From assembly GCA_017519005.1 (NCBI GenBank), contig JAFWTG010000030.1, positions 1 to 34,295 on the forward strand: DNA of 34,295 nucleotides, written 5' to 3'. Origin of the DNA: Oscillospiraceae bacterium. GTDB taxonomy: Bacteria > Bacillota > Clostridia > Oscillospirales > Oscillospiraceae. The notes under the pieces were generated by a model that worked only from the letters and a program-made list of their open reading frames with translations, was not told the origin of the DNA and ran no database searches. This document shows, piece by piece, positions 4,205 through 34,140 of this stretch; the first letter of the stretch is position 1, and every line of letters starts with the position of its first letter. Both the position numbers and the translations under genes were made by a program.

Positions 4205-5278
4205 ATGACTGTATTCTATATTTTATTAGCCATCCTGATCTTCGGCTTTCTGATCTTCATCCATGAGCTGGGACATTTCCTCACTGCCAAGCTCTGCGGG
4301 GTGCGGGTCAACGAATTTGCCATCAACATGGGTCCCAAGCTCTTCGGCTGGAAGCGGGGGGAGACCCAGTACTCCTTCCGCCTCATCCCCATCGGCGGCT
4401 ACTGCGCCATGGAGGGGGAGGACGAGGACACCGGCGACCCGCGCTGCTTCGTCAACGCCGCCTGGTGGAAGCGGCTGATCATCCTCTGCGCCGGCTCCTT
4501 TATGAATCTGCTGACGGGCTTCGTGGTGATGTGCCTGCTGCTGGCCTTTGCCTACGGTCCCACCCAGACCGCGAAGATCACCGGCGTCATGCCCGGCAAC
4601 ACCGTGGAGGCCCAGGGCCTGCGGGTGGGGGATACCCTCTACGCCATCGACGGCCGCCGCATTTATATGCGCTCGGATTTCGACCTGCTGGAATCCCGCC
4701 TGCCCACGGAGCACTGCGAGCTCACCGTGCTGCGGGATGGGGAGAAGCTGGTGCTCCACGACTTCAACCTGACCCGCACCGAGCTGACGGACCGGGATGG
4801 CAACCGGGGCAAATACCTGGGCATCTATCTGGAGGAGTACGAGGAGAAGAACCTGGGCTCCGTGCTGAAATACGGCGTCTATGAGTGCATCGACTTCACC
4901 CGCATGGTCTGGTATGGCCTGACGGACCTCTTTACCGGCAAGGCCGGCCTGAAGGATATGGGCGGCGTGATCGGCGTGGTGGACGTGATGGTGCAGTCCG
5001 GCGAGACGGCCAAGACCGTCTCCCACGGCGTCGAGAACGTGCTCTATCTGGGGGCTTTTATCGCGGTGAACCTGGCGGTCATGAACATGCTGCCCATCCC
5101 CGCCCTGGACGGCGGCCGGGTCCTCTTCCTGCTGATTAACACCGTCTTTACCAAGGTCACCGGCAAGAAGGTGGATCCCAAATACGAGGGTTATCTCCAC
5201 GCCGGCGCCATGGTCCTCCTCCTGGGACTCATGGCAGTCCTGATGATCAAGGACGTGCTGATGATTATCAATCGGTGA
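4205..5278 (+). CDS. rseP: RseP/SpoIVFB-type site-2 zinc metalloprotease
   Basis: This is an intramembrane zinc protease that cleaves transmembrane segments of substrates such as anti-sigma factors and signal-peptide remnants. The 357-residue protein begins with a membrane helix carrying the zinc motif HELGH (about residues 20-24). It then has a PDZ domain (about residues 115-200) and, near residue 300, NMLPIPALDGGR with the third zinc ligand Asp, then a final helix. This is the standard topology and length. GAAAGG lies about 10 nt before the ATG. Its position between dxr and ispG is conserved in Firmicutes. It is a candidate enzyme for releasing membrane-tethered regulators, which matters for the sigma fusion at 28622; any such link is inference. 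Confidence 0.95.
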   Translation: MTVFYILLAILIFGFLIFIHELGHFLTAKLCGVRVNEFAINMGPKLFGWKRGETQYSFRLIPIGGYCAMEGEDEDTGDPRCFVNAAWWKRLIILCAGSFMNLLTGFVVMCLLLAFAYGPTQTAKITGVMPGNTVEAQGLRVGDTLYAIDGRRIYMRSDFDLLESRLPTEHCELTVLRDGEKLVLHDFNLTRTELTDRDGNRGKYLGIYLEEYEEKNLGSVLKYGVYECIDFTRMVWYGLTDLFTGKAGLKDMGGVIGVVDVMVQSGETAKTVSHGVENVLYLGAFIAVNLAVMNMLPIPALDGGRVLFLLINTVFTKVTGKKVDPKYEGYLHAGAMVLLLGLMAVLMIKDVLMIINR

Positions 5279-28134: not shown

Positions 28135-28364
28135 CAGATGCGGATTTGTCGAGCTCCCGCAAAACCTCCCCTGGTAAGGGGAGGTGCCCCAGTGCGCACA
28201 CTGGGGCGGAGAGGTAAGGTATCAGAGATTGAGCGCTCCCAGGCAACGACGGCAAGACCCAACGCGACCCCTCCACCGCCCTTGCGGGCGGTCCCCCTCC
28301 CCTTTGCAGGGGAGGTTTGTCTGAAGCTCGATCCGCTGGCATCAGTTCGACAAATCCCGATTTT
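28135..28364. repeat. 230-bp element with the same 17-bp inverted ends but a different interior
   Basis: The ends CAGATGCGGATTTGTCG (28135-28151) and CGACAAATCCCGATTTT (28348-28364) match the ends of the 128-bp elements. The interior is unrelated. CCTCCCC...GGGGAGG stems occur near each end, with a GCCCCAGTGCGCACACTGGGGC hairpin (about 28187-28208) and an ACCGCCCTTGCGGGCGGT hairpin (about 28276-28293). No protein is encoded. It lies between the GH3 promoter and the sigma operon promoter, ending 20 bp before the latter's -35. Confidence 0.8.
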
Positions 28365-28384: not shown

Positions 28385-28414
28385 TGTCAACCGTTTTTCG
28401 ACTCGCAGCGTCTA
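28385..28414 (+). promoter_or_regulatory. Candidate ECF-sigma promoter upstream of the sigma operon
   Basis: TGTCAACC (28385-28392) and CGTCTA (28409-28414) place AAC and CGTC 17 bp apart, which is the general form of ECF promoters (AAC in -35, CGTC in -10). A T5 run after the -35 also fits. No sigma-A boxes are seen here. It suggests autoregulation by the sigma encoded at 28622; not proven. Confidence 0.5.
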
Positions 28415-28446
28415 TGAGGCAGAGCCCGAAAAACGGAGGTGGTCGT

Positions 28447-28629
28447 ATGGAAGACTTTGACGGTTTCAATCACTTATATCAGGCGCTGATGGAATACTAC
28501 CGGCTGCCGCCGGAAACGTCCTCGAAGCAGCTCAGCGCCATTCTGCGGCAGGTGGACGCCGTGAGAAGCGCCGCGGGCGTCCGGACCGGCGCGTTCCGGA
28601 CGGCGGCAGGAGGTTCGGTATATGGATAA
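28447..28629 (+). CDS. Small protein (60 aa) overlapping the sigma gene start
   Basis: A strong GGAGGTGGT lies 5 nt before an ATG that opens a 60-residue frame (MEDFDGFNHLYQALMEYYRL at the start). The predicted protein has an acidic, aromatic N-terminal helix and a basic, Ala-rich C-terminal part. There is no membrane segment and no known motif. Its stop TAA overlaps the next start as ATGGATAA, so translation of the sigma factor is probably coupled to it. It could be a small regulator, an anti-sigma-like peptide or only a translational leader. I do not recognise it. Confidence 0.65.
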   Translation: MEDFDGFNHLYQALMEYYRLPPETSSKQLSAILRQVDAVRSAAGVRTGAFRTAAGGSVYG

Positions 28630-30559
28630 CAGAGAGAATAAGACGACCGCGGTGGATTATGCCGCCCTGGTGGCCCGGGCCAGGACCGGGGATCAGGACG
28701 CCTATACCGCCCTCTACGAGGCAACCAGCCAGGAGCTCTACCGCACGGTCCGCTCGATGGTCCGCACCGAGGACCAGACCCTGGATATCCAGCAGGAAGC
28801 CTACGTATACGCCTTCACGCATCTGGACCAGCTGGGCGAACCCGCCAAATTCCGCGCCTGGCTCCACACCATCGCCGTGAACCGGACCCGCTCCGTTCTG
28901 CGCAGGCAGACGGCCCTGCTCTTCTCCGAGCTGGAGACGGAGGAGGGGAGCGGTCTGCCGGAGCTGGCGGACGAGAGCCCCGACAATTCGCCGGAGCTGG
29001 CCCTGGAGCGCAAGGAGACGGCGGAGCTGATCCGGGAGATTCTGGACAGCCTCAGCGCCGGCCAGCGACTGCTGGTGGGCCTGTACTACTACGAGCAGAT
29101 CCCCCTCCACAAGATCGCCGAGGACCTCGGCGTCAGCGCCGGCACGGTGAAGACGCAGCTCTTCCGCAGCCGGAAGAAGATCGAGTCCGCCGTGGAGCAG
29201 CTTCAGAAGAAGGGCGTCAAGCTCTTCGGCCTGAGCCCGCTGCCCTTCCTGCTGGCCCTGCTGAGGAAGGCGGAGCCCGCCGCGGAGGAAACGGAAAAGG
29301 CCGTTCTGGCCGGGAGCCTCAGCAAGGCCGGGATCGTCGCGGAGAGCGCCGCCGTCCATCTGGGCCGCAGCTTCTTCCAGACAGCCCTGGGCCGGGTGAC
29401 CCTTGGCCTGATCGCCGCGCTGAGCGTCGCAGGCGGCGTTCTGGGTTACAGCTGGATCAAAAATCACCTGATGAGCCCCTTGGGCGACGTCCGGCCCACC
29501 GAGACCGTGGAGAGCGCAGAGGACCTGAGCACGGAACCGGAGAGCACCGAGCCCGACGACACCGAGACCCTGCCCCCGGACAGCAGCGAGGATCTGGTCA
29601 CAGAACCCGTCACGACGGAGCCCACGGAACCGGAGACAACAGAACCTGCGGAATCGGAAACTGCGGCGCCCACGGACCCCGCACCGCAGCCCACTGACCC
29701 CACGAACCCCGGGACCGGTGCCCACAGCGGCCCTGACCACACCGATCCCACGAACCCCGGTGCCGGAGACCACAGCAACCCCACCGGTCCTACGGGGGAA
29801 CCGACGCCTTCTTCCACGTCCTCCGGGCATTCGTCAGAAGACGAGCCGCGGGTTGTGAATTGCTACTGGGATTATGGAAATGGCAAGGATCTATACGATC
29901 AGCCGTGGGGAAGCTCCCAACGCATCAAGATCATAACGGTAAATGGCGCACAGCCGTATCTCTATACGGACAACGATAAGGCCGTTCAGCTTAAATCTCA
30001 AGGTCAGTTTTACGGCGGAGGCTTGGAGGAAGGTCAAAAGGGCTACTACTGGTCTGTGACATTCCTTGGCAGCGGCACAGCGCACATCTACTGCGAACTG
30101 AACTTCAAGGTCACCCATGTGCTGACGGTCACAAATCCGGAATACCCTGAAACGATCCTCGAAACCTATATTGACGATCATAATACGACAAACCAATTTA
30201 GTCTGAAGCTCGACCTGTGGGAACGTATCTCGATCCTGGTACAGGGCATGACAAAACCAACGGTGTATACGGACCATCCGGAGATCGTGCAGGCGGATTA
30301 TCTCAGCGGGTTCTCCGGCAGTCAGACGAGCTGGATCCACAAAGGGTATCATTTGGATGTTCATCCCTTGAAGCCGGGGACCGCCCATATCTATATCGCG
30401 CTGAACGGCAAAGTGTATAAGACCTATACCGTGACGGTATTGAACGAGTATCAGCGGCCGCCGGAGACGGAGCCGACGGAACCGCCGACGGAACCGCCTA
30501 CGGAGCCGCCCACGGAGCCGACGGAGCCGCCGGAAGAACCGACGGACGCTTCGGAATGA
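28622..30559 (+). CDS. ECF sigma factor fused to a transmembrane helix and extracellular sensor-like domains
   Basis: This 645-residue polypeptide starts as a sigma-70-family ECF factor. Sigma2 (about residues 15-95) includes DQTLDIQQEAYVYAF, and sigma4 (about 134-195) includes the helix-turn-helix HKIAEDLGVSAGTVKTQLF. A hydrophobic patch (201-214) and one clear transmembrane helix (257-279) follow. Next comes a Pro/Thr/Glu/Ser-rich stalk (about 291-405). Two tandem modules (about 411-507 and 517-611) share GTAHIY and LNxKV, and a final Thr-Glu-Pro-Pro-rich tail ends the protein (612-645). There is no stop or frameshift between parts. The N-in, C-out topology would put sigma in the cytosol and the modules on the cell surface. 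The start codon overlaps the stop of the small gene. The modules are AT-richer than the sigma half. The function as a surface sensor is inferred. Confidence 0.9.
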   Translation: MDNRENKTTAVDYAALVARARTGDQDAYTALYEATSQELYRTVRSMVRTEDQTLDIQQEAYVYAFTHLDQLGEPAKFRAWLHTIAVNRTRSVLRRQTALLFSELETEEGSGLPELADESPDNSPELALERKETAELIREILDSLSAGQRLLVGLYYYEQIPLHKIAEDLGVSAGTVKTQLFRSRKKIESAVEQLQKKGVKLFGLSPLPFLLALLRKAEPAAEETEKAVLAGSLSKAGIVAESAAVHLGRSFFQTALGRVTLGLIAALSVAGGVLGYSWIKNHLMSPLGDVRPTETVESAEDLSTEPESTEPDDTETLPPDSSEDLVTEPVTTEPTEPETTEPAESETAAPTDPAPQPTDPTNPGTGAHSGPDHTDPTNPGAGDHSNPTGPTGEPTPSSTSSGHSSEDEPRVVNCYWDYGNGKDLYDQPWGSSQRIKIITVNGAQPYLYTDNDKAVQLKSQGQFYGGGLEEGQKGYYWSVTFLGSGTAHIYCELNFKVTHVLTVTNPEYPETILETYIDDHNTTNQFSLKLDLWERISILVQGMTKPTVYTDHPEIVQADYLSGFSGSQTSWIHKGYHLDVHPLKPGTAHIYIALNGKVYKTYTVTVLNEYQRPPETEPTEPPTEPPTEPPTEPTEPPEEPTDASE

Positions 30560-30603: not shown

Positions 30604-32409
30604 ATGTATAAAAAACTGATTTCCGTTCTCCTCGCGGTGCTGATTTTGACAAGCCTGCTCGCGCTTCCCGCCGATGCGGCTTCCTATTCCAGCGCGTTCA
30701 ACTGTCTGAAGGAATTTGCCATGCAGGGAACTTATGACAGTGGTGATAATACAGATTTCTATGTGAATGCAATCGCATTGGATGATTACGGAAACTACAA
30801 GATCGGCATAACATACTATGTCAGAGCGGAACCAAGCTGTAATTATTTCGAGCTCTTTACCGACGCTGAGTCAACGGCTCCGGTTATCTCGCTCTACTAT
30901 TATCAGAAAAATGAGGACAGAAGCGAATGCTGGACGATGATCCGGTTTACACCGCAGCAGCGGGACAGCTGTACGGTCGCCCTGGATATCTCTCCCGGCA
31001 ATGAGCTCCCCGGCTGTATGGCGACGGCGACGATCCACCCGTCCACTTATAAAACCTCTGCAAAGCTGAGCTTTGAGCGGTACGATGACTGGGGCGCGGG
31101 CTATATGCGGGAGACCTATCAGGAGTATATGCGGGCGTCCCTCGCGCTGCTGCTGGAATACGCGAGAAAAATCCTGGTGGAAAACGGCTCCGATTTACAG
31201 AGCCTGGGCTTTTCAAAGTTTGATCAACATACCGTTCACGCCATTGACTACAGTGACAGTGTGATCCTGCATCAGGAGCCCCGGTGCAACAGCAAAGGGA
31301 TCATCGAGTACAGCTGCGCCATCTGCGGACAGCGGATTCTGGAATATCTGCCTATGACCCCCGGCGAACACAATTGGGACGATGGCATTTTGACGGATCC
31401 CCCAAGCTGTAAGACGGAGGGGAAAATCACCTACACCTGCGTCTGGTGCGGAGAAAAGAAATATGAGTATCTTCCGCCCGATCCGGACGCGCACGTTGTG
31501 TATGGCGGGACGGTTGAGCAGGAACCGACCTGTACGGAGGACGGCACGAAAACCGGAAGCTGTTTCTTCTGTATGCAAACAGTGACTGTTTCGGTCCCTG
31601 CTTTGGGTCATCTTTGGGATGAAGGCGAGGTGGCGCAGGAGCCGGGCTGCACAGAAGACGGCGTGTGGCAGTGTACCTGTGTCCGCTGCGGTGAGACCGA
31701 GGAGGAAGCAATCCCGAATCTCGGAGGCCACCTCTGGACATTTACCGAGCTTTTGACGGAAGCGGAGGAGGGTGGCCCCCACGCCTGCACCGGCCTCTAC
31801 ACCTGCTCGCGCTGTAGCGAGACCAAGGAAGACAAGCTCTGCGCCGGCATGGTCTTCAAGGACATGCCGCCCGAGGACTTCTGGTCCCACGATCCCATCG
31901 ACTGGGCCTGGTACAACGGCATCACCGGCGGCACCGGCCCCGATACCTTCTCGCCCGACCTGACCGTCACCCGCTCCCAGGTCGTGACCTTCCTCTGGGC
32001 CGCGGCGAAGAAGCCAGCGCCCGAGACCGCGACGAGCCCCTTCACCGACGTGAAGGAGGGCGACTGGTTCCTGAGCCCGGTCCTCTGGGCCGTGGAGCAC
32101 GGCGTGACGGGCGGCATTGGCAACAGCCAGTTCGGACCCAACGCGGTCTGCACCCGCGCGCAGATCGTCACCTTCCTCTGGGCGGCCGCCGGGAAGCCAA
32201 CGCCTGAGACGACCGAGAGCCCCTTCACCGACGTCAAGGAAGGCGACTGGTATCGGAGCGCCGTGCTCTGGGCCGTGGAGAACGGCGTGACGGGCGGAGT
32301 CGGCAACAATCAATTCGGCCCCGACCTGGTCTGCACCCGCGCCCAGGCGGTGACCTTCCTCTATAAGGCAAGTCAGATTCCTGCCACCGAGGCGCCTGCC
32401 GAGCCCTGA
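30604..32409 (+). CDS. SLH-anchored surface protein with CxxC modules
   Basis: This 601-residue protein has a signal peptide (cleavage after Ala25 in ALPADA), an unrecognised N-terminal domain (about 27-205), and about five modules (about 215-410) each with Cys, then CxxC, and a His-Leu-Trp or His-Asn-Trp tail, as in TCTEDG, SCFFC and GHLWDEG. Three SLH repeats follow (about 419-598; ITGGTGPDTFSPDLTVTR in the first). SLH domains bind pyruvylated secondary wall polymer. The module Cys sets could bind zinc or form disulfides. It starts 44 bp after the sigma fusion with no promoter or terminator between, so it is probably co-transcribed. The first part (to about 31730) is AT-richer than the SLH part. 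Confidence 0.9.
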   Translation: MYKKLISVLLAVLILTSLLALPADAASYSSAFNCLKEFAMQGTYDSGDNTDFYVNAIALDDYGNYKIGITYYVRAEPSCNYFELFTDAESTAPVISLYYYQKNEDRSECWTMIRFTPQQRDSCTVALDISPGNELPGCMATATIHPSTYKTSAKLSFERYDDWGAGYMRETYQEYMRASLALLLEYARKILVENGSDLQSLGFSKFDQHTVHAIDYSDSVILHQEPRCNSKGIIEYSCAICGQRILEYLPMTPGEHNWDDGILTDPPSCKTEGKITYTCVWCGEKKYEYLPPDPDAHVVYGGTVEQEPTCTEDGTKTGSCFFCMQTVTVSVPALGHLWDEGEVAQEPGCTEDGVWQCTCVRCGETEEEAIPNLGGHLWTFTELLTEAEEGGPHACTGLYTCSRCSETKEDKLCAGMVFKDMPPEDFWSHDPIDWAWYNGITGGTGPDTFSPDLTVTRSQVVTFLWAAAKKPAPETATSPFTDVKEGDWFLSPVLWAVEHGVTGGIGNSQFGPNAVCTRAQIVTFLWAAAGKPTPETTESPFTDVKEGDWYRSAVLWAVENGVTGGVGNNQFGPDLVCTRAQAVTFLYKASQIPATEAPAEP

Positions 32410-32415
32410 GCGCTG

Positions 32416-32450
32416 AAACGCCCCGTGCGGTCCCGCCGCATGGGGCGTTT
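32416..32450 (+). terminator. Hairpin terminator after the SLH protein gene
   Basis: A 15-bp stem (AAACGCCCCGTGCGG with CCGCATGGGGCGTTT, one G-T) and a 5-nt loop, ending in TTTGC. The T-run is short. Confidence 0.75.
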
Positions 32451-32481
32451 GCGGTCCCGCGGCGCGCCGTTTTACGGGGAC

Positions 32482-32510
32482 TTGCATAATTCCAAAAAAT
32501 GGTGTATAAT
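32482..32510 (+). promoter_or_regulatory. Sigma-A-type promoter for the SGNH-SLH gene
   Basis: TTGCAT (32482-32487), a 17-bp spacer and a perfect TATAAT (32505-32510), just before the ribosome site AAGGAGGG. The gene is therefore transcribed separately from the sigma operon. Confidence 0.78.
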
Positions 32511-32532
32511 ATCCCCCAAGGAGGGATATTCC

Positions 32533-34140
32533 ATGAAAAAACGACTGCTTGCGGCGGCGCTGGCGCTGCTCTGCCTGCTCTCACTGCTGCCCGCGGCCTC
32601 GGCCACGGCCACGGCCCCCTGCCTGATCCTGGACAGCAAGACCGTCCTGATCGGGGACTCCAATACCGTCGGCCTCAAACGGAACAACACGGACATCCGT
32701 GCCGCCCGAATCTTTGCGAGGGTCAACGGCAGGATCGAAGAATGCGTCAAGGATTACCCCAGCTGGATCGTGGACGGCTACAGCCAGAGCATGTACCAAC
32801 TGATCACCGGTCTGAGCAAAAGCAGCTTTCATACCGTCGTGATCAATATGGGCACCAATAACTGCGGCTCCAGCGTAAGCACCTTCAAGAACAAATACCG
32901 GGAGCTTCTGAATCTTCTGCTGACCAAGAATCCCGCGGCGGTGATCTACGTCTGCAAGATCCTCCCCATCAATCCGAACAATTATACCGGCAGCTATCCA
33001 GGCGCCTTTACGCTGGAGAACGTCAACAAAATCAACGCCGCCGTGGCGCAGCTTCAGGCGGAGTTTGCCGGCAGCGGCCGCGACGTGCGCCTGCTGGACC
33101 TGCATACCCCCATGGCGGACAGCGCCGGGCGGCTGAAGGCGGAGTACGACTCCGGCGGCGGCATCCACCTGAGCGCTAAGGGCTACAAGTACATGAACAC
33201 GCTGATCCAGACGGCGCTGGCCAAGGGGAATCCCAACGGAAATCACCAGTGGGGCAGCCCCACCAGCTACACGGCCCCCACCTGCACCGAGGCCGGCTGG
33301 GCGGAATACCGCTGCAGCGTCTGCGGCGCGCAAAAGGGCGTGGTCCTGCCCGCCGGCGGCGCCCACCAATGGGACGGCGGCACGGTCCTCTCTGTCCAGA
33401 GCTGCGAGACCCCCGGCCAGGTCCGCTACGTCTGTACCCGCTGCGGCACGACCCGGACCGATACGACGCCCGCCCTGGGCCACGCCTGGGTCGTGACGGA
33501 GCGCCTGGTGGAGCCCGGCACGGACGGCGCGCATTCGGGCCAGGCCCGCTATACCTGTACCCGCTGCGGCAAGACCAAGACGTCGCGGCTATGCGCCGCG
33601 GAGGTGTTCATTGATATGCCGCCTGAGGGCGACTGGTCCCACGATCCTCTGGACTGGGCCTGGATCAAAGGCGTCACCGGCGGCACCGGACCGAACACGA
33701 TCTCGCCGGAGCAGACGGTCACCCGCGCCCAGGCCGTCACCTTCCTTTGGGCGCTGGCCGGCCGTCCGGCCCCGGCCGGGACGGAATCCCCGTTCAGCGA
33801 CGTCTCCGCAGGCGTCTACTACTACAGCCCGGTCCTCTGGGCTGTGGAGCAGGGGATCACCGGCGGCACCGGCGACGGGAAATTCAGCCCCGACGCCCCC
33901 TGCAGCCGTGCCCAGATCGTCACCTTCCTCTGGGCCGCCGCGGACAAACCGGAGCCCGCGCTGACGCAGAACCCCTTTACGGACGTCCGGGAGAGCGATT
34001 TCTACTATCAGGCCGTGCTCTGGGCCGTGGAGAACGGCGTCACCGGCGGCGTGGGCGGCGGCAAATTCGCCCCCGACCAGAGCTGCACCCGCGCCCAGGC
34101 CGTGACCTTCCTCTACAAGGCCAGCCAAATCGCGGAGTAA
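32533..34140 (+). CDS. SGNH/GDSL-type hydrolase with CxxC modules and SLH anchor
   Basis: This 535-residue secreted protein has a signal peptide (about 1-24), an SGNH hydrolase domain (about 30-232), CxxC modules (about 238-365) and three C-terminal SLH repeats (about 368-533). The SGNH blocks are GDSN (41-44, nucleophile Ser43), GTNN (107-110) and IHLS (211-214, His212). The expected Asp three residues before the His is a glycine; the nearest Asp is 206 in YDSGGGIH. Members remove acyl groups from sugars or lipids. Its modules and SLH part resemble the previous gene, suggesting domain sharing. The start is at 32533 behind AAGGAGGGATATTCC; a longer open frame upstream covers the promoter. Confidence 0.9.
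   Translation: MKKRLLAAALALLCLLSLLPAASATATAPCLILDSKTVLIGDSNTVGLKRNNTDIRAARIFARVNGRIEECVKDYPSWIVDGYSQSMYQLITGLSKSSFHTVVINMGTNNCGSSVSTFKNKYRELLNLLLTKNPAAVIYVCKILPINPNNYTGSYPGAFTLENVNKINAAVAQLQAEFAGSGRDVRLLDLHTPMADSAGRLKAEYDSGGGIHLSAKGYKYMNTLIQTALAKGNPNGNHQWGSPTSYTAPTCTEAGWAEYRCSVCGAQKGVVLPAGGAHQWDGGTVLSVQSCETPGQVRYVCTRCGTTRTDTTPALGHAWVVTERLVEPGTDGAHSGQARYTCTRCGKTKTSRLCAAEVFIDMPPEGDWSHDPLDWAWIKGVTGGTGPNTISPEQTVTRAQAVTFLWALAGRPAPAGTESPFSDVSAGVYYYSPVLWAVEQGITGGTGDGKFSPDAPCSRAQIVTFLWAAADKPEPALTQNPFTDVRESDFYYQAVLWAVENGVTGGVGGGKFAPDQSCTRAQAVTFLYKASQIAE

Follow-up and report, generated by a model that had tools for sequence, protein, structure and literature searches.

A clostridial family of membrane-tethered ECF sigma factors with a conserved small partner gene and a co-varying putative promoter

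The 34,295-nucleotide contig JAFWTG010000030.1 of an Oscillospiraceae bacterium (GCA_017519005.1; a draft genome of 141 contigs, completeness 86%), analysed here over its full length and called the window, encodes on its forward strand a sigma factor of the extracytoplasmic function (ECF) type that is joined in one chain to a membrane helix and an extracellular part. A promoter-like element and a gene for a small protein lie upstream, and 44 bases after the sigma stop begins a gene for a secreted-looking protein with S-layer homology (SLH) repeats (Table 1). Judged from sequence, the order promoter, small protein, sigma factor and secreted surface protein likely constitutes an operon, in which the SLH protein is the probable partner of the sigma factor.

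The sigma frame is open throughout its 645 codons, with no interruption. Sigma regions 2 and 4 are its only Pfam domains, the rest of the protein giving no Pfam match at E-values up to 1, and it scores 92.2 bits with the sigma70-ECF model TIGR02937 against a curated cut-off of 42.9, which identifies it as an ECF sigma factor. The linker that follows sigma4 has a hallmark pattern, GVKLFGLSPLPFLLALL, which is present in 78 of 82 relatives, and the distance from sigma4 to the helix is roughly 45–95 residues across the family. A zinc-finger anti-sigma domain hidden in this linker was ruled out for lack of cysteine pairs: residues 1–256 of the window protein, linker included, hold no cysteine, and none of the 78 family linkers contains a CxxC motif (8 have a single cysteine). 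The most hydrophobic 19-residue segment of the window protein, 256–274, has a mean Kyte–Doolittle value of 1.78, compared with 1.31 for the next best elsewhere. AlphaFold2, run on residues 1–289 with an alignment of 50 sequences (mean predicted local distance difference test (pLDDT) 81.9), predicted sigma2 and sigma4 well and placed linker helices at 206–216 and 225–235 and the membrane helix at 255–283; within the linker, pLDDT falls from 91 at 201–210 to about 48–50 at 221–250. A Foldseek search of solved structures returned ECF sigma factors at the top, the first being SigW bound to RsiW (TM-score 0.72 by target and 0.42 by query; root-mean-square deviation 8.5), and SigW is also the nearest solved sigma factor by sequence (E 2.8e-16). 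That anti-sigma-bound SigW is favoured over holoenzyme forms is not decisive for autoinhibition, and we rejected the predicted arrangement as proof of it because the linker is poorly predicted past residue 220.

Outside the membrane, a 123-residue stalk (23 Pro, 23 Thr, 16 Glu and 15 Ser) leads to two modules and then to a Pro/Thr-rich tail. The modules are true repeats of each other: across 87 residues they are 33% identical, and the E-value is 1e-12 when BLAST compares the two sequences alone and 1.6e-9 when phmmer is run among 83 proteins. AlphaFold2 modelled the ectodomain as beta sandwiches, nearly all beta (mean pLDDT 86.8). We assign it an immunoglobulin-like (Ig-like) fold because its top-listed Foldseek matches are mainly Ig-like domains, at modest TM-scores; the best match by E-value is the S-layer protein SbsC. 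No carbohydrate-binding module was matched in the window protein by Pfam. A GDxRP-like extracellular motif after the helix was considered as a cleavage site and dropped, being present in only 33 of 82 members.

Table 1 Features of the window that bear on the tethered sigma factor
Feature	Coordinates	Strand	Basis
Putative ECF-type operon promoter	28385..28424	+	-35 TGTCAACCGTTTT 28385-28397; -10/start region GTCTATGAGGCAGAG 28410-28424
Small 60-amino-acid protein, conserved family	28447..28629	+	8-base overlap with sigma start
Membrane-tethered ECF sigma factor, 645 amino acids	28622..30559	+	Single frame; Pfam and NCBIfam sigma matches
Sigma region 2 (residues 31-97)	28712..28912	+	Sigma70_r2, PF04542, E 1.8e-9
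Sigma region 4 (residues 135-187)	29024..29182	+	Sigma70_r4_2, PF08281, E 2.2e-10
Post-sigma4 linker (residues 196-256), hallmark GVKLFGLSPLPFLLALL	29207..29389	+	Pattern, AlphaFold2
Transmembrane helix, Gly/Ala-rich (about residues 257-279)	29390..29458	+	Hydropathy; AlphaFold2
Pro/Thr/Glu/Ser-rich stalk (residues 283-405)	29468..29836	+	Composition
Ig-like module 1 (residues 410-505)	29849..30136	+	phmmer/BLAST self-similarity; AlphaFold2, Foldseek
Ig-like module 2 (residues 506-602)	30137..30427	+	phmmer/BLAST self-similarity; AlphaFold2, Foldseek
Pro/Thr-rich C-terminal tail	30458..30556	+	Direct reading
SLH protein, signal-peptide-like start, three SLH repeats	30604..32409	+	PF00395, three stretches
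RseP site-2 protease homologue (RIP metalloprotease)	4205..5278	+	TIGR00054, 222.5 bits vs cut-off 147.55

The window protein belongs to a family that is multiplied within genomes. Three more fused sigma factors are encoded in its own genome, on contigs C48, C91 and C116; the C48 paralogue has the same Ig-like ectodomain type and is followed by a relative of the window's SLH protein (56% identity). A profile that spans sigma, linker and helix (A4, built from 50 of 83 proteins) was run over the genus; at an E-value of 1e-40 it matched 21 of its 24 genomes, with 87 places in all and between 1 and 14 in any one. From the fetched loci we obtained 88 open reading frames and kept 82, leaving out five fragments and one unfused ECF sigma factor; the short frames among the matches that we looked at run off contig ends. 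Past the linker, every one of the 82 has a hydrophobic 19-residue segment with a mean of at least 1.56. Pfam was run on 77 of the 83 proteins, the window's included and six truncated ones excluded, and found sigma domains in all 77, BspA-type leucine-rich repeats (LRR_5) in 37 and Peptidase_S41 in two; the Ig-like type comprises ten members, the window protein among them. The ectodomain varies between paralogues while the sigma–linker–helix layout stays. The unfused sigma factor (L013, at G000:C134) is followed by a frame with, by eye, a zinc-finger-like anti-sigma N terminus, and both fused and separate layouts are therefore found in the same genome.

These relatives decide the question of whether the one-piece protein is genuine. 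The fragmentation of the draft genome into 141 contigs might suggest an assembly chimera, or a sigma gene and a surface-protein gene joined by chance; the three own-genome paralogues and the 87 places in the genus refute it, similar fusions occur in the isolates Blautia sp. An249 and Intestinimonas butyriciproducens, and we regard this explanation as having next to no chance of being correct. Because paralogues and genus relatives share the fusion, it is no sequencing artefact either. The original prediction, made from the letters of the window, had described an ECF sigma factor in one piece with a helix, a stalk, tandem modules and a Pro/Thr-rich tail, a layout with which Pfam, hydropathy, composition and self-comparison by BLAST all agree. 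It had proposed a domain scan, structure prediction and a search for homologues, which yielded the two sigma domains, the helix at 255–283 with beta-sandwich modules, and the 82 fused relatives, respectively. It had also named what would overturn it, namely a stop or error splitting the frame, or homologues that always keep the sigma and extracellular parts in separate genes; the frame is open, and the fusion recurs in paralogues and relatives.

Beyond the genus, the profile is sparser. It matched at least 9 of 150 family genomes (1e-40), at least 86 of 295 in the order (1e-30, many matches spanning the sigma part only) and at least 11 of 291 in the class (1e-38); each count takes in the window's own genome and is a lower bound because no more than 8 or 16 candidates were scored in any genome. 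In named genomes, a close alignment picked up 64 loci, among them Oscillospiraceae, Ruminococcaceae and 'uncultured Clostridia' metagenome-assembled genomes (MAGs), from ruminant rumen, omasum and duodenum where a source is given. Among 16 more distant loci, fused frames with a hydrophobic helix were found in the isolates Blautia sp. An249, Anaeromassilibacillus sp. An172, Oliverpabstia intestinalis, Pseudoflavonifractor phocaeensis and I. butyriciproducens; at one of the loci (L225) the frame is cut by the contig end before any helix. Frames of about 1,050 amino acids similar to that at L163 (1450-3537), in several clostridial families, are possibly another recurring class, with an ECF sigma part and a long, soluble-looking C-terminal extension in the one sequence read.

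The small protein encoded ahead of the sigma factor is conserved with it. A small frame lies upstream of 71 of the 83 family members, and in many the two frames overlap or abut. A profile made from such frames (A8, built from 59 of 72) matched 80 places in 20 of the 24 genus genomes, 77 of them no more than 450 bases ahead of a tethered sigma gene; of the remaining three, two sit at the edge of their contigs, and for the third the 1.2 kb up to the end of the contig hold no sigma gene. Genomes G004, G010 and G016, which have no sigma match at 1e-40, have no small gene either, and G012, with one distant sigma factor, gave no small-gene match. A clearer relative precedes the sigma gene L129 in another genus of the family (E 6e-13), and weaker ones precede fused sigma genes in Blautia sp. 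An249 (E 3e-5) and an Anaerostipes MAG (E 3e-6). A profile search of the PDB gave no match, and Pfam and NCBIfam on 59 members gave scattered weak matches only (best E 0.021, none in the window member); we rejected assignment to a known family, the only matches being at E 0.02 or worse. No hydrophobic 19-residue segment is present (best mean 0.46). Compared with the sigma linker, the small-protein profile reached an hhalign score of 19.1 (at most 11.7 in 100 column shuffles), a likeness that we take as a hint only because hhalign assigns it a probability of 13% and scores the reversed profile at 14.6. No separate membrane anti-sigma gene adjoins the window sigma gene, its neighbours being this small protein without a known domain and the SLH protein. 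The hint in the original prediction that the 60-residue neighbour might matter is thus borne out by a conserved family that accompanies the tethered sigma factor at 77 of 80 places.

Upstream of the small gene recurs a bipartite element, TGTMAACCKTTTT, 12 (11–14) bases and RTCTWAtAGACAGAA, which usually ends 20–25 bases before the gene. A first, strict regular expression found it in 11 of 83 cases, and a matrix was used instead. With the matrix, 67 of 71 regions upstream of the small gene contain a copy that outscores all 355 shuffles, one further region being too short to score; shuffles reach at most 8.4 bits and the window copy scores 33.1. The -35 part, TGTMAACC, contains the AAC typical of ECF-type promoters in these 67 of 71 regions, which is consistent with control of the sigma gene by its own product. 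The CAGAA downstream of the -10 is conserved at 83–95% per base, about as strongly as the -35 core; in the window (28410-28424) and at related loci it lies near the expected transcript start. A stricter form of the pattern occurs at 57 places in the 24 genus genomes, compared with 18 for a reversed-pattern control, and at 5 places compared with 0 in the window's own genome, where it finds the C48 and C91 operons. G004, G010, G012 and G016, with no or one distant tethered sigma factor, have no strict match. Upstream of the window promoter, at 28160-28320, short palindromic stretches (CTCCCCT...AGGGGAGG) look by eye like interspersed repeats.

We compared sigma factors and promoters in 65 pairs over 189 columns, using mutual information and a test on pairs matched for identity. 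Residue 94, in sigma region 2, ranks first for the first -10 base by mutual information and in every matched test: where this base is C, residue 94 is R in 33 of 35, and where it is G, the residue is S, A, G or T in 17 of 18. Among pairs of 50–90% identity, residue 94 differs in 83% of those with different bases, compared with 24% of those with the same base. The fourth -35 base goes with residue 178, which lies on helix 2 of the sigma4 helix-turn-helix: of 27 cases with C, 24 have T, S or K there, and of 37 with A, 31 have A, N or V. Residue 178 ranks second by mutual information; of the three overlapping identity ranges of the matched test, two put it first and the other puts it third. The letter after TCT points, by mutual information alone, to residue 159. 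The regions of residues 94 and 178 are DNA-contacting parts in ECF sigma factors. With two of four letters falling on the expected contact helices, the evidence that each sigma factor would read its own promoter is good but not conclusive, and the sigma factor most likely drives its own operon, because the ECF-type promoter co-varies at two letters with DNA-contacting parts.

Genes downstream of the sigma factors, and behind other copies of the motif, include ones for surface proteins. Among 31 secreted-looking downstream proteins, the window's counted, 16 have SLH and 10 have LRR_5 domains; these shares describe no random sample, because the 31 were chosen for looking secreted. The set contains the window and omits L072, and the set used for pairing ectodomains does the reverse. 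In the latter, the sigma ectodomain and its downstream protein are homologous at E below 1e-10 in 11 of 31 pairs, and we do not claim that an ectodomain is of the same type as its own downstream protein. A comparison of 32 ectodomains against the full set of 32 downstream proteins gave any match for 13, of which only 3 matched their own partner best; the window's ectodomain and its SLH partner share no match. We examined 33 of the 57 motif places, of which 18 do not lie directly before a small gene, and most of these 18 stand before a gene whose product shows, by eye, a signal peptide, a lipobox or a membrane segment. Pfam on 10 of the 18 targets gave five LRR_5, one SLH, two DUF4358 (one below the cut-off) and two without a match, so that 6 of the 10 are secreted LRR or SLH proteins. 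The genome of the window contributes two of these targets, a secreted LRR_5 protein on C94 and a lipoprotein on C140. An identical 27-base promoter match occurs in two species of the genus (G000:C94:1221-1247 and G006:C67:4773-4799), in G000 ahead of the secreted LRR_5 gene. Small membrane proteins lie behind a variant motif, TGTCAACCGTTT...CGTCTAATAGAATAGAGG, at L246 and L254 and behind a looser form at L260; those at L254 and L260 look related by eye. In the window, a GDSL-type lipase with three SLH repeats (32425-34140) adjoins the operon.

At the level of sequence, then, a tether within one chain is combined with a variable, sensor-like outer part, a coupled small gene, a shared predicted promoter and partial co-variation. 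The reading that we favour, and hold to be fairly probable, is that the window protein is a one-component transmembrane signalling sigma factor, held at rest, cleaved on an outside signal and transcribing its own operon. In the resting state, the linker, the small cytosolic protein or both would keep the sigma part inactive at the membrane, and the Ig-like modules would sense a change in the cell wall or S-layer. Cleavage would follow near the helix and then inside it, an RseP-type protease being the candidate, and the freed sigma factor would transcribe its operon and further surface-protein genes (SLH, LRR). Of these steps, which we infer, proteolytic release is likely. The window itself encodes an RseP homologue, lying by eye between dxr-like and ispG-like genes.

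Several observations weigh against this reading. Cleavage, the link to a protease and a ligand are postulates of the model, and RseP-type proteases are common in bacteria and have general duties, so the presence of one is weak evidence. The small gene accompanies 77 of 88 sigma places (the 87 of the scan at 1e-40 and one fragment) and is missing from 11. The promoter matrix was trained on the very regions that it scored; the stricter pattern misses the window and C116 copies, two of the four own-genome operons, and has no match in G011, G017, G020 and G021, which carry tethered sigma factors. Some extra motif copies do not precede a surface gene, and one (L230) has no convincing gene behind it. 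Relatedness is also a partial confounder of the co-variation: the top-ranked residue for the second -10 base is 91 by mutual information but 44 in the matched test, and for -35 base 9 it is 163 and 78, respectively.

Two other accounts keep the tether and change its meaning. The small protein might be the real switch, as a cytosolic anti-sigma or co-sigma factor, with the tether merely placing the sigma factor at sites of surface-protein export. The genomic pairing at 77 of 80 places, the overlapping or abutting frames, the missing small gene in the three genomes without a sigma match and a profile that resembles the linker, as if both bound the same place, speak for it; the low hhalign probability, the lack of any family or structure match and the 11 sigma genes without a small gene count against it, and it leaves the variable ectodomains unexplained. 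We consider it unlikely. Alternatively, the sigma factor could act while anchored, capturing RNA polymerase and promoters near the membrane with no release, for which ToxR/CadC-type activators offer a comparison. The length of the linker could give the necessary reach and no cleavage motif was found, but of the known fused ECF factors IutY is reported, and SCO4117 proposed, to be cut, and a Gly/Ala-rich helix would suit intramembrane cleavage; anchored action seems to us distinctly improbable. Within the release model, we raise tentatively, and as somewhat doubtful, the idea that the small protein is a new class of sigma partner, which mimics and competes with the helical segment after sigma4. 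Each paralogue would then be a two-key switch, freed from outside and gated from inside, and the genus would pick the SLH and LRR proteins that it displays through up to 14 sensors with slightly different promoters.

One-piece membrane ECF sigma factors are few and little tested. A clostridial family multiplied within genomes, with exchangeable sensors, a small partner and visible promoter co-variation, provides a map of sensor, sigma factor and promoter that is testable in the isolates Blautia sp. An249, I. butyriciproducens and P. phocaeensis; it is a likely route by which these bacteria choose their surface proteins and puts many naturally distinct sigma–promoter pairs on offer. The original prediction had the architecture right and overlooked the promoter, the size of the family and the secreted partner gene. 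New here are the conserved small partner, the shared ECF-type promoter, the co-variation and the candidate surface-protein targets. The view in the original prediction that covalent joining of sigma factor and sensor departs from known ECF layouts does not hold, IutY, ECF48, ECF52 (with SCO4117) and ECF53 having been described before.

Excerpts from one paper list IutY (ECF243), ECF48, ECF52, ECF53 and some ECF36 members as fused membrane ECF factors; they describe IutY of Pseudomonas putida as fused at its C terminus to a membrane-bound anti-sigma part, with release by Prc and RseP reported, and as serving iron/siderophore cell-surface signalling (PMC8999054). Passages of another describe ECF52 (SCO4117 of Streptomyces) as having a zinc finger, a membrane helix, a proline-rich extension and a carbohydrate-binding module; they call the group exclusive to Actinobacteria, suggest self-regulation and propose proteolytic activation for SCO4117 (PMC5826349). 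The literature on tethered, fused or LRR/SLH-linked ECF sigma factors yielded no clostridial fused ECF factor, which does not establish absence from print, and excerpts from PMC10766802, PMC8103513 and PMC8999054 contain no clostridial fusion case. Like ECF52, the window protein joins an ECF sigma factor, a membrane helix, a proline-rich stalk and an extracellular domain in one chain; unlike ECF52, its family is clostridial, has no zinc finger (no CxxC in 78 linkers), carries Ig-like or LRR ectodomains, reaches 14 copies per genome and has a small partner gene. Like IutY, it joins the sigma factor C-terminally to a membrane part; unlike IutY, it has no FecR-type domain at E-values up to 1, nor is one among the family's Pfam matches listed (one listing giving 25 of 31 families). 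The SigI/RsgI systems share with the window family their clostridial hosts, multiplication within genomes, variable extracellular sensor modules and control of surface proteins. There, sigma factor and sensor are two proteins; here they are one, the sigma factor is ECF and not SigI, and no RsgI domain was matched in the window protein or in six other window proteins scanned. SigW of Bacillus is the closest solved sigma factor by both sequence and Foldseek, and its anti-sigma factor RsiW is, unlike the tether described here, a separate zinc-binding protein (structure 5wuq). By the features tested, the window family lies outside ECF52 and the IutY group and would work like them; we count it as a variant of the fused ECF factors because it has neither a zinc finger nor a detected carbohydrate module and is clostridial, expanded within genomes and coupled to a small gene.

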